A stretch of 33,048 nucleotides of DNA from Burkholderiales bacterium (lineage in GTDB: Bacteria; Pseudomonadota; Gammaproteobacteria; Burkholderiales; SG8-39). The stretch is from the NCBI GenBank assembly GCA_026416295.1, contig JAOAFL010000077.1, positions 1 through 33,048 on the forward strand. Reading direction: 5' to 3'. This document shows positions 189 through 4,013 of this stretch, piece by piece; the stretch's first letter is position 1; every line of letters begins with the position of its first letter. Made by a program: the position numbers and the translations under genes. The notes below the pieces were generated by a model. It saw only the letters and a program-made list of their open reading frames with translations. It was not told the origin of the DNA and made no database searches.

Positions 189-641
189 ATGGCTGAAGTC
201 CGCGGCTGCCATTTCCCCGACGAGCTGCTCTACGACGTCGACAACCACATCTGGTACCAGGAACTGCCCGACGGCAACGTCAGGCTCGGCATGACGAGCG
301 TCGCCACCGCGATGGCCGGGCAACTGGTCGCGTTCACGCCGAAAAAGGTCGGCCGCTCGGTCGAGGCGGGCAAGTCCTGCGCGACGGTGGAGTCCGGCAA
401 ATGGGTCGGTCCGGCCAAATCGGCGGTCGCGGGCACCGTGGTCGCGGTCAATGACGCGCTCGTCGCAAAACCGTCGCTCGCGAACGAGGACCCCTACGGC
501 GCGGGCTGGCTCGTGGTGATCAAGCCGGCCGACTGGGCGACGGTCAAGGCGGGCCTTACGCCCGGCTCCCAGGTCGCGCCGAAATACGAGGCGAAGATGG
601 CGGCGGACAACTTCGCCGGCTGCGCGCCGGCGTGCAGGTGA
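189..641 (+). CDS. GcvH-like lipoyl carrier protein, probably LbpA type
   Basis: This 150-residue protein has the GcvH lipoyl fold. The lipoylated lysine is K71 in the motif VESGKWVG, where glycine-cleavage H proteins usually read ESVKAAS. GcvH is normally about 125-130 residues; the extra length, the ESGKWVGP motif, the stretch AFTPKKVGRSVEAGKSCATV before it and the cysteine-bearing C-terminus (FAGCAPACR) match what I recall of LbpA. LbpA is the lipoate-binding carrier of the sulfur-oxidising heterodisulfide reductase-like (sHdr) pathway. There is no gcvT or gcvP beside it. The neighbours instead are a probable persulfide-sensing regulator and a lipoate ligase. The alternative is an orphan GcvH serving glycine cleavage. 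The lipoyl-domain assignment is secure; the LbpA assignment is inference. Confidence 0.85.
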   Translation: MAEVRGCHFPDELLYDVDNHIWYQELPDGNVRLGMTSVATAMAGQLVAFTPKKVGRSVEAGKSCATVESGKWVGPAKSAVAGTVVAVNDALVAKPSLANEDPYGAGWLVVIKPADWATVKAGLTPGSQVAPKYEAKMAADNFAGCAPACR

Positions 642-1015
642 CCGAGGCGGCGATGCAGCGCGCGGCGGTCGCCGAAATGAACCTGCAGGAGCTGCAGTCG
701 CGCGCGCTGCGCGCCTCGGGGCTGCTCAAGGCGATGTCGAACCCGGTGCGGCTCATCATCCTCTGCCAGCTCGCTGAAGGCGAGAAATCGGTCGGGGAGC
801 TGGAGCGCGTCGTGGACGTGAGCCAGTCGGCGCTGTCGCAGCACCTTGCGCTGCTGCGCCAACGCGGGATCGTCAGATTCCGGCGCGAGGGCCAGACGAT
901 CTACTACGCGCTCGCCGGCCCCGAGGCGCCGACGCTGCTCGCCGCGCTCTACGCCGTCTATTGCAGCAACATCCGCGGCGCGCGCGCACCGCGCGCACGC
1001 CGCAGGCCGGCCTAG
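632..1015 (+). CDS. ArsR-family regulator, probable persulfide sensor
   Basis: This is a winged-helix ArsR repressor of up to 127 residues. The recognition region reads VSQSALSQHLALLRQRGIV, followed by a wing with RREGQTIYYAL. Counting from the GTG at 632, cysteines lie at C45 (in LIILCQL) and C111 (in YAVYCSN), 66 residues apart. The sensor cysteines of SqrR (C41/C107) and BigR (C42/C108) have the same spacing and form di- or polysulfide bridges with sulfane sulfur. No metal-binding CVC motif of the ArsR/SmtB metal sensors is present. The start is uncertain: GTG 632, GTG 638 (overlapping the upstream TGA as GTGA), ATG 653 and ATG 677 are all possible. It overlaps the lipoyl-carrier gene and is probably co-transcribed with it. 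It shares the palindromic stop CTAG with the convergent gene. Confidence 0.9.
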   Translation: MQVTEAAMQRAAVAEMNLQELQSRALRASGLLKAMSNPVRLIILCQLAEGEKSVGELERVVDVSQSALSQHLALLRQRGIVRFRREGQTIYYALAGPEAPTLLAALYAVYCSNIRGARAPRARRRPA

Positions 1016-1371
1016 TCGGCCGGTTTCGGCACCGGCGGCGAAAGGCAGCCGACCAGCCGCTCGATCCGGAAGCGGTTGAATTCGTTCCAGGCGGCGACGA
1101 CGCGGTCCTCGGCTTGCGCGTCGCCGCTCTTTTCCGCCGCATAGACCGCATCGAGCAGTGCGGCGAGCGGCTCGGCGAGCTCCCTCGTTCGCGTATCGCC
1201 CGGCGTCCAGCCGATGCGCATGCCGGCCTTGCGGAACGCCTCGGCGTCGGGCGCGCGCTGCGCGAGTTCGCGCAGCTTCGCGAGCCGCGCGATGTCCTCG
1301 CGCAGGAGCTGGGCGCGAAAGAGGCTCGTTTCCGCGGCGGCGAGCCGCTCAAGTTCGGCGATGAGCCGCAT
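1012..1371 (-). CDS. Unknown 119-residue helical protein coupled to the lipoate ligase gene
   Basis: I do not recognise a family. The protein is rich in Ala, Arg, Glu and Leu and looks all-helical, with no signal peptide or membrane segment. A single cysteine lies near the C-terminus. The ATG at 1369-1371 has a GGAG Shine-Dalgarno seven bases upstream, and it lies 23 bases inside the end of the ligase-hydrolase gene. This indicates translational coupling and a role tied to that protein. Its stop TAG overlaps the stop of the convergent arsR-type gene in the palindrome CTAG (1012-1015). The reading frame and start are well supported; the function is unknown. Confidence 0.7.
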   Translation of the reverse strand: MRLIAELERLAAAETSLFRAQLLREDIARLAKLRELAQRAPDAEAFRKAGMRIGWTPGDTRTRELAEPLAALLDAVYAAEKSGDAQAEDRVVAAWNEFNRFRIERLVGCLSPPVPKPAD

Positions 1372-3223
1372 CGTTGCGCTCCGAAAGTATGCCGCGGATG
1401 AAGGCGATCGCGGCGGCGAGCACCGGCTCGCGCGCCTGGTGCAGCGGATAGTGCGCGCAGCCCGGAATGCGAAGGACGCGGAGCCGTCCGGGGAGCAGCC
1501 GCGCGAGCGCGGCGATCTGCGCCTCGGAGAAGAATTCGTCGTCCTCGCCCTGGATCGCGAGCACCGGCACGCGCACGCGCCCGACATAGGGTTCGAGCCC
1601 CCAGCCGGCCCCCGGCCCTTCGGCGGTCCAGACCTCGACCAGGCGCGCGAACAGCGCGTCGGTCTTTTCGCCATGGTGGCGGAAAAGCCTCGCGCGCAGG
1701 TCGCCTCGTTCGAATTCCTCGATCTGCCGCCGGATCGCGGCAAGCGTCCGAGCCTCGCGAAAGAGGTGCGGCGAGAGCGCGATCACGCCGCGCACGCGCT
1801 CGGGGTGTTCGCCGGCGCAGGCGAGCGCGATCGAGGCGCCGTCCGATTGCCCGACGAGGATTGCTTCGCGCACTCCGGTCTGTTCGAGCACCTCGGGCAG
1901 CGACACGAGCGCCTCTTCGAGGAGATAGCGGCGCGAGTAAGGCGGCGCGAGCGGCTCGGATTCGCCCGAGCCCCAGCGGTCGTAGACGAGCGCGCCGCAG
2001 CCGGTCGCGCGCGAAAGCCGCTCGGGAACGTCGCGCCAGAGCCGCGCGCTGCCGAGCGCATCGTGCAGGAAAACGAGCGTCGGCGCGCGCTCCGGGCCGG
2101 GGCCGCGCCAGTGCCCGCGCAGCGTTCGCCCCGCCGCGCGCAGATCGCGCTGCGCGAGCGCCTGCTCGATCGCCTCCCGAAAGTCGGCGGGCGTAAGCCC
2201 CACCAGCTCGCACGCCGAGCGCGCAAAGAACGCCTCCACCGCTTCGCCGGCCTGCGCTGCCGCGACACCGCGAAGCGCCGCCTCGAGGTCGTACACCGCG
2301 CGCGGCGGGCTGACGAAAAAGTCGCCGGTGACGAGCGCTTCCCGGATGCGCCGGCCCGGCCCTTCGAGCCGCAGGTCGGCGCGCACGGTCCCGCCGCGGC
2401 GAAAGAGGGTTGCCGATACCTGCGGGGCCTCGCTCCCCGGCGCATCGAGCAGGCCCACGAACGCCTCGGTGCCGAACTGCTCTTCGAGCAGCCGCTCGGC
2501 GAGCCGCTCCTCGTACTCGGTCGCCTCGGCCCACTCGGGCGCAAGGCCGAGTTCTTCGCGAAAGCCTTCGAGCAGGGCCGCCTGGACCTCCTCGATCGCC
2601 GGCCGGCGTCCCATCGCCTCGGCGAGGGTGACGACGCGCCGGCGCGCGTCGTCCAGCTCCCGGCGCGCGAGCTTTTCCACCGGCACGCGCAGCACCTCGA
2701 TCATGCGCGCCGGGTCGAAGTCGACGAGGAGCGTTCCCTGGAAGAAGAGCGTTCCGCCCTCGACGAGCCCGCCGGTGCCGCTTACCTTGCGGCCGCCGAT
2801 CTCGATGTCGTTGCGCGGGCGGAATTCGGCGGCGACCCCGAGGCGGCGAAGCCCGGCGGCTGCGGCGCGGCAGAGGCGCGCGGCGGCCGAGCCGAGATCG
2901 CCTCCGACGGCACCGCGCGGTAGCACCAGTTCCCAGCCGAGCACGCCCTCGTCGAGGTAAAGGCCGCCGCCGCCGGTGATGCGGCGACCCACTTCGATTC
3001 CGTGCCGCGCGCAGTACTCGAGCCGCACCTCGTGCGAGAGCATCTGGTGCAGCCCGACGAGCGCCGAGGGTCGAAAGCGAAGGAACCGGATCGTGTCGGG
3101 GATGCGGCGCGCCGCATGCGCCTCGACGAGCGCCTGATCGAACGCGACGTTCGCGCGGCCGCCGCGCATTCCGGTGTCGATCACCCGCACCGGGCGGCGG
3201 CCTTGCGGCGCTGGCGCGTTCAT
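1349..3223 (-). CDS. Lipoate-protein ligase fused to an alpha/beta hydrolase
   Basis: This 624-residue protein carries two enzymes. Residues about 10-240 form a biotin/lipoate ligase (BPL/LPL) catalytic domain, with RRITGGGG at 80-87 in place of the usual RRxSGGGxVxHD and the active-site lysine K146 in GGRKVSGTGG. Residues about 240-350 resemble the accessory domain of bacterial lipoate ligases. Residues about 365-624 are an alpha/beta hydrolase: nucleophile elbow GQSDG with S460, acid D561 or D562 in GEDDEFF, and H591 in GCAHYPLH. The ligase would activate lipoate or octanoate with ATP and attach it to a carrier such as the nearby lipoyl protein. The hydrolase could release or supply lipoyl groups, but that is speculation. 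The gene lies 10 bases after the dehydrogenase gene and overlaps the next small gene. The fusion is continuous in one frame with no sign of a frameshift. Confidence 0.88.
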   Translation of the reverse strand: MNAPAPQGRRPVRVIDTGMRGGRANVAFDQALVEAHAARRIPDTIRFLRFRPSALVGLHQMLSHEVRLEYCARHGIEVGRRITGGGGLYLDEGVLGWELVLPRGAVGGDLGSAAARLCRAAAAGLRRLGVAAEFRPRNDIEIGGRKVSGTGGLVEGGTLFFQGTLLVDFDPARMIEVLRVPVEKLARRELDDARRRVVTLAEAMGRRPAIEEVQAALLEGFREELGLAPEWAEATEYEERLAERLLEEQFGTEAFVGLLDAPGSEAPQVSATLFRRGGTVRADLRLEGPGRRIREALVTGDFFVSPPRAVYDLEAALRGVAAAQAGEAVEAFFARSACELVGLTPADFREAIEQALAQRDLRAAGRTLRGHWRGPGPERAPTLVFLHDALGSARLWRDVPERLSRATGCGALVYDRWGSGESEPLAPPYSRRYLLEEALVSLPEVLEQTGVREAILVGQSDGASIALACAGEHPERVRGVIALSPHLFREARTLAAIRRQIEEFERGDLRARLFRHHGEKTDALFARLVEVWTAEGPGAGWGLEPYVGRVRVPVLAIQGEDDEFFSEAQIAALARLLPGRLRVLRIPGCAHYPLHQAREPVLAAAIAFIRGILSERNDAAHRRT

Positions 3224-3233
3224 CGGCGCGCGC

Positions 3234-4013
3234 CTAGAACGTGCCCGGGTAGGCGCCGCCGTCGATGAGCAGGTTCTGGCCGGTGATGTAGCCGGCGTGG
3301 CTGCTCGCGAGGAACGCGCAGGCCGCGCCGAACTCCTCGATCGTACCGAAGCGCTTCGCCGGGATCGCCTGCTCGAGCGCCGCCTTCACTTCCTCCGGCG
3401 TCCTGCCCTGGCGGCGCGCGTTGAATTCGGTGTTCTGCCTCAGCCGGTCGGTCCAGAAGCGGCCGGGCAGGAGGTTGTTGATCGTGACGTTGTGCTGCGC
3501 GACCTGGCGCGCAAGGCCCGCGACGAACCCGGTGAGCCCCGAGCGCGCGCCGTTCGAGAGCCCGAGTTCGGCGATCGGCATCTTCACCGCGCCGGAGGTG
3601 ATGTTGACGATGCGGCCGAAGCGGCGCCGGATCATGCCGTCGAGCGTCGCGCGGATCATCTCGATCGGCGCGAGCATGTTGGCGTCCAGGGCCTTCAGCC
3701 AGTCCTCCCGCGTCCAGTCGCGAAAATCGCCCGGCGGCGGCCCGCCGGCGTTGTTCACGAGGATGTCCGGCTCGGGGCACGCCGCGAGCGCCGCCGCACG
3801 GCCCTCCGGGGTGGCGATGTCGCCGGCGACCGCGGTCACCGAGACGCCGGTCGCGCGGCGGATTTCGTCGGCGGTCGCCTCGAGCGCCTCGCGCCCGCGC
3901 GCGGTGATGACGAGATTCGCGCCCTCGCGCGCGAGCGCCATCGCGCAGCCCTTGCCGAGGCCCTTCGAGGCCGCGCAGACGAGCGCCGTCTTTCCGCGGA
4001 TTCCGAGGTCCAT
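3234..4013 (-). CDS. Short-chain dehydrogenase/reductase with a degenerate catalytic site
   Basis: This 259-residue SDR has a Rossmann fold with the cofactor motif CAASKGLGKG (residues 13-22) and NNAG at 87-90. The catalytic serine is in place (S140, in NITS). The usual YxxxK is replaced by S153 and R157 in the stretch LGLSNGARSGLTGF. Both catalytic Tyr and Lys are therefore missing at the classical positions. I recall a SDR subfamily that keeps this SNGAR variant, so this is probably a conserved feature rather than an error. The substrate is unknown; automatic annotation would call it 3-oxoacyl-ACP reductase-like. A strong Shine-Dalgarno (AGGAGG) overlaps the stop codon of the upstream ATPase gene, which implies one transcript with it and with the ligase-hydrolase. 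Confidence 0.9.
   Translation of the reverse strand: MDLGIRGKTALVCAASKGLGKGCAMALAREGANLVITARGREALEATADEIRRATGVSVTAVAGDIATPEGRAAALAACPEPDILVNNAGGPPPGDFRDWTREDWLKALDANMLAPIEMIRATLDGMIRRRFGRIVNITSGAVKMPIAELGLSNGARSGLTGFVAGLARQVAQHNVTINNLLPGRFWTDRLRQNTEFNARRQGRTPEEVKAALEQAIPAKRFGTIEEFGAACAFLASSHAGYITGQNLLIDGGAYPGTF

Follow-up and report, generated by a model that had tools for sequence, protein, structure and literature searches.

The window, by which we mean the whole stretch of 33,048 nucleotides analysed here, is one contig whose left end breaks off within an operon. The first gene that is complete in it encodes the lipoate-binding protein LbpA, with the conserved lysine K71 and, near the termini, the cysteines C7 and C145, a pair that sets LbpA apart from GcvH. 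A regulator gene lies beside it, and the opposite strand carries a small conserved gene, for whose product no match was found in Pfam or NCBIfam, the gene under study and a short-chain dehydrogenase/reductase (SDR) gene (Table 1). The gene under study is a single unbroken frame beginning with ATG, which joins a lipoate-protein ligase to an alpha/beta hydrolase. The SDR gene is located 10 bp upstream of it on the same strand, and judging from this arrangement the two are probably co-transcribed. In other genera (L034:6625-7820, L033:5136-6346), genes for a MaoC-like dehydratase and a protein of the 2-phosphosulfolactate phosphatase (ComB) family come after the fusion, on its strand. SDR or MaoC genes directly adjoin the fusion in different lineages, neither link being constant across them, and both are common in acyl-chain metabolism.

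Table 1. Features at the fusion locus (positions in the window)
Feature	Position	Strand	Evidence
LbpA, GcvH-like lipoate-binding protein; K71 in ESGKWVG, C7, C145	189..641	+	GCV_H PF01597, two-cysteine signature, shdr neighbourhood in relatives
ArsR-type regulator, BigR/SoxR/sHdrR-like	632..1015	+	NF040642 BigR E 3.4e-29 (under cut-off), HTH_5, same site beside lbpA in relatives
Small conserved protein, 119 aa	1012..1371	-	Gene call; conserved in L036, L053, L056; overlaps fusion gene end
sLpl(AB)-alpha/beta hydrolase fusion gene, 624 aa	1349..3223	-	ORF and translation, domains, homologues in 12 genomes, model
Alpha/beta hydrolase part, residues ~358-610, S460/D562/H591	1394..2152	-	PF00561, structure match 9l75_B, triad
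Ligase part, residues ~13-356, catalytic lysine K146	2156..3187	-	PF21948, NF053749, structure match to LplA
Short-chain dehydrogenase/reductase, FabG-like family	3234..4013	-	PF13561 E 1.6e-43; neighbour kept in L035, L036, L037

In the fusion protein, Pfam places LplA-B_cat (PF21948) at residues 24-221 (E 1.1e-43) and Abhydrolase_1 (PF00561) at residues 381-495 (E 6.7e-20). Between them, the NCBIfam model NF053749 (LplB) matches residues 276-356 with an E value of 1.2e-12, under the model's own cut-off; the accessory LplB-like domain is backed by this match together with a full-length structural match to two-domain LplA. The AlphaFold2 single-chain model of the fusion has a mean pLDDT of 90.7 and a pTM of 0.84. 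Its ligase half is nearest to bacterial LplA, for example 5ij6 (Z 33.9, 307 residues, 2.3 A). The hydrolase half matches 9l75_B (Z 34.4, 254 residues, 1.9 A, 26% identity) and valacyclovir hydrolase (2ocg; Z ~30.4-30.5, 16% identity). It belongs to the alpha/beta hydrolase superfamily, as both the fold and a Ser-Asp-His triad are present, with the nucleophile S460 in a GQSDG motif. The fold of this half is generic, its nearest structures are not acyl-ACP thioesterases, and no sequence feature diagnostic of acyl-ACP or acyl-CoA thioesterases was found in it.

The original prediction of one frame joining ligase and hydrolase is borne out by the Pfam and NCBIfam domains, the 12 genomes described below and the confident single-chain model. 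Its coordinates are exact, and K146, S460, D561/D562 and H591 lie where it had put them; in the alignment D562 is the invariant acid of the triad and D561 is not, and K146 is invariant across fused and unfused ligases. It had also noted that the ligase motif departs from the usual form. The motif is indeed RRITGGGGLYLDEG, but it is not peculiar to the fusion protein, since aligned unfused sLpl(AB) show the same departure from canonical VxHD, small changes apart, with D91 as the sole invariant position. YLD is an ordinary trait of the sLpl(AB) clade, and the idea of an aberrant ligase motif was rejected.

The same fusion architecture was found in 9 of the 98 genomes in the window's family. A GTDB scan detected it in seven other betaproteobacterial-type metagenome-assembled genomes (MAGs), in partial overlap with the family set, and in one alphaproteobacterial MAG, two more relatives of which carry it as well, so that three alphaproteobacterial genomes are known. 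In total, at least 12 genomes from two bacterial classes contain the fusion, although unfused sLpl(AB) genes are the majority in the family and in the wider sample. Among loci with known record titles the carriers are MAGs only, which could point to two genes joined by assembly or annotation. However, the same junction recurs in 12 separately assembled genomes sharing ~55-77% identity, and all have the full-length architecture; this search, which the original prediction had suggested, refutes an assembly artefact and, with the confident model, rules out chance or a sequencing-derived joining of two genes, making such an origin next to impossible.

In the tree, the fused ligases make up a single clade with moderate support (83/70), and so do the fused hydrolases, separate from their stand-alone relatives, with full support (100/100), which suggests that one fusion event lies behind all copies. 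The fused ligase groups (100/100) with unfused sLpl of lip clusters, for example L040 and L124. Simple pairwise omega values are similarly low for the ligase half (0.15-0.25) and the hydrolase half (0.16-0.31), indicating that both are kept by purifying selection. Compared with the stand-alone relatives, which have the same triad and a GxSDG motif with D461 likewise invariant, the fused hydrolase clade has fixed new residues at 15 positions, including 388-389 near the oxyanion loop. In a single MAG (G051; L039:8694-10541), an in-frame gap removes 17 residues of the hydrolase, among them the nucleophile serine, and the ligase is intact, so the hydrolase half may be auxiliary. A Rosetta-stone test gave no support for an origin from split partners, as no separate hydrolase gene was found within ~1.5 kb of slpl(AB) at 16 unfused loci. 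Stand-alone hydrolases often adjoin MFS-like or EamA-like transporter genes and not lip genes, which gives no clear hint of their substrate, and plasmid records with homologues are annotated just as 'alpha/beta hydrolase'.

The gene-neighbourhood survey called for by the original prediction revealed a shdr-lbpA cluster beside the fusion in relatives. In four of them (L035, L036, L037 and L053), genes for DsrE-like, Fe-S and CCG-domain proteins and an HdrA-like flavoprotein precede those for LbpA, which closes the shdr cluster, and the ArsR regulator, and the fusion is nearby. In the window's own genome (G000), the remainder of the shdr cluster lies on contig C98, adjoining lipX, lipS2, lipT, lipS1 and tusA. 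What distinguishes sLpl(AB) is that its gene occurs in genomes alongside lbpA, shdr and lipS1/lipS2 (PMC10332631), and these genes are found in the fusion genomes. LipS1 homologues are present in all of them save G007, which is 56% complete; in G027, LipS1 and LipS2 were matched by NCBIfam models below the cut-off. A histone-deacetylase-family gene lies beside lipS1 in the lip clusters of G027 and G864 (L040:12620-13702, L113:4932-6014; PF00850 E 7.4e-63 for the L040 copy), and its product is possibly a lysine deacylase tied to lipoylation.

In unfused kin, slpl(AB) is located inside or directly beside lipS1-lipT-lipS2, and the gene order lipS1-lipT-lipS2-slpl is known from Hyphomicrobium denitrificans (PMC10332631). 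Among the betaproteobacterial fusion genomes, the lip cluster is readable in eight (G000, G001, G012, G864, G028, G049, G035 and G051), all of which have lipS1-lipT-lipS2 and lack slpl(AB). G876 and G881, which are alphaproteobacterial, have the fusion itself after lipS1-lipT-lipS2, where it occupies the slpl(AB) slot. Moreover, PF21948 searches detected no second sLpl in the fusion genomes: in G000 they returned the fusion and one other protein, LipB, adjoining LipA, and other matches in the window's genus are likewise single per genome, being confirmed as LipB in G000. The empty slot, its occupation by the fusion in G876 and G881 and LipB as the sole other PF21948 protein make the fusion the probable sLpl(AB) ligase of the sHdr-LbpA pathway in the organisms that carry it, and LbpA of the window its probable substrate. 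This pathway had escaped the original prediction, in which neither the ligase was recognised as a dedicated sLpl(AB) nor the product of 189-641 as the LbpA of sHdr sulfur oxidation with LipS1/LipS2. Four of the eight genomes (G028, G049, G035 and G051) have another type of shdr cluster from which its own ligase gene is gone, and here the native ligase was apparently replaced by the fusion. At L080, L081, L082 and L083, in genomes of other genera, slpl(AB) is the single gene missing from a second type of shdr-lip cluster, a gap that suggests such a displacement. A 252-residue LplA-like protein with a weak PF21948 match (L081:168-926; similar in L048 and L053) is encoded near shdr or fusion loci of fused and unfused genomes alike.

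The fusion shares with known sLpl(AB) (PMC10332631, PMC6067878) the LplA and LplB domains, the catalytic lysine, the clade and the association with lbpA, shdr and lipS1-lipT-lipS2. However, known sLpl(AB) are ~350 residues long and end after LplB, whereas the fusion adds an alpha/beta hydrolase of ~250 residues and, in betaproteobacteria, is not encoded within the lip cluster. Fusion of a lipoate ligase to another enzyme of lipoate metabolism is also seen in the bifunctional lipoate-protein ligase/lipoyl synthase (NF053790), but its second half is a radical-SAM LipA and not a hydrolase. The hydrolase 9l75 ('A novel PE hydrolase and its structural basis'), on which a literature search found no paper, has the same fold as the fused hydrolase but stands alone and has GHSVG at its nucleophile in place of GxSDG. 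Human valacyclovir hydrolase (BPHL, 2ocg) has this fold too, and its nucleophile Ser is likewise followed immediately by an Asp; it is a stand-alone hydrolase of amino-acid esters and homocysteine thiolactone. A literature search limited to open-licence papers found no published enzyme pairing ligase and hydrolase, in agreement with what the original prediction had said, and the fusion is apparently a conserved domain pairing in a known pathway that has so far gone undescribed.

Characterised sLpl(AB) forms octanoyl- or lipoyl-AMP and modifies LbpA (PMC10332631, PMC6067878). Its substrates are limited to octanoate or lipoate in free form, and it does not act as an octanoyltransferase (PMC6067878), so that the pathway needs a source of free acid; the main text of PMC10332631 and PMC6067878 does not mention a thioesterase. 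By analogy with these relatives, the ligase half would adenylate free octanoate (or lipoate) and pass the acyl group to the LbpA lysine, here K71, after which LipS1/LipS2 would insert sulfur. The hydrolase half may cleave an acyl donor (the thioesters octanoyl-ACP or octanoyl-CoA, for example, or an ester of octanoate or lipoate), and the freed acid would then go to the ligase half within this one protein. Given the substrate limit of sLpl(AB), the likeliest role appears to be that of a (thio)esterase supplying the ligase, with salvage and de-acylation as rivals. Such a release of precursor, one of the options raised by the original prediction, is a reasonable idea and would be compatible with the known substrates. 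We give not quite even chances to the fusion being an sHdr-LbpA sLpl(AB) with a C-terminal esterase-type hydrolase that feeds free acid to the ligase. A self-supplying lipoate ligase in the narrower sense, whose hydrolase frees octanoate from acyl carrier or CoA for re-activation and attachment to LbpA, is a tentative proposal, more a possibility than an expectation. Counting against supply, most sLpl(AB) bacteria lack the fusion and function with an unfused ligase, so the process can do without a fused supplier; the nearest structures are 9l75 and valacyclovir hydrolase, the G051 hydrolase has no nucleophile serine, and the SDR and MaoC links are inconstant.

The hydrolase might rather serve salvage. 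Acting on amides or esters (lipoamide, lipoyl-lysine, degraded LbpA), it would free lipoate or octanoate, and one protein would both detach and reattach the group, which suits a ligase using free lipoate. Serine hydrolases are among the known lipoamidases. In addition, the GxS-D-G motif with its invariant D461 matches S122-D123 of valacyclovir hydrolase, a close structural match, in which D123 neutralises a free amino group that adjoins the carbonyl being cleaved (PMC4198189). However, the closest relatives are ester hydrolases, an amidase signature is absent, and D461 is common to stand-alone hydrolases and hence was not acquired for the fusion, so that we consider salvage unlikely. Quality control, in which wrong acyl groups would be stripped off the lipoyl thiols of LbpA or mischarged acyl-AMP would be cleared, is distinctly unlikely, as acyl groups on LbpA are not known in its sulfur chemistry. 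AcoC-type E2 proteins do combine a lipoyl domain with an alpha/beta hydrolase fold, and the fusion has a weak match to NF011457 (AcoC-type E2). The alpha/beta hydrolase ABHD11, a glutaryl-lipoyl thioesterase (lipoyl deglutarylase) acting on protein-bound lipoyl (PMC12643935), also speaks for it by functional analogy only; this enzyme is mitochondrial and unfused, and it was not seen among the listed sequence and structure matches, an absence that does not exclude kinship.

Alternatively, the hydrolase could have an ester or lactone from elsewhere in metabolism as its substrate and be fused for expression, stability or scaffolding, with no action in the lipoate pathway. The transporter genes beside the stand-alone relatives and the loss of the nucleophile in the G051 lineage would fit such a role. 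It is nevertheless somewhat unlikely, since the fusion has been kept in 12 genomes of two classes under purifying selection on both halves and 15 hydrolase positions, including those at the oxyanion loop, have switched to fixed residues.

A conserved hydrolase attached to the ligase of the pathway, in a protein that stands in for the usual ligase, is a candidate enzyme for the supply of free acid, the role we favour, or, in sulfur-oxidising bacteria, for the turnover of lipoyl groups. A self-supplying ligase, if true, would explain the origin of free octanoate in the sLpl(AB)-LipS1/S2 pathway, and the fusion may thus reveal the source of the free fatty-acid precursor of this sulfur-oxidation pathway.
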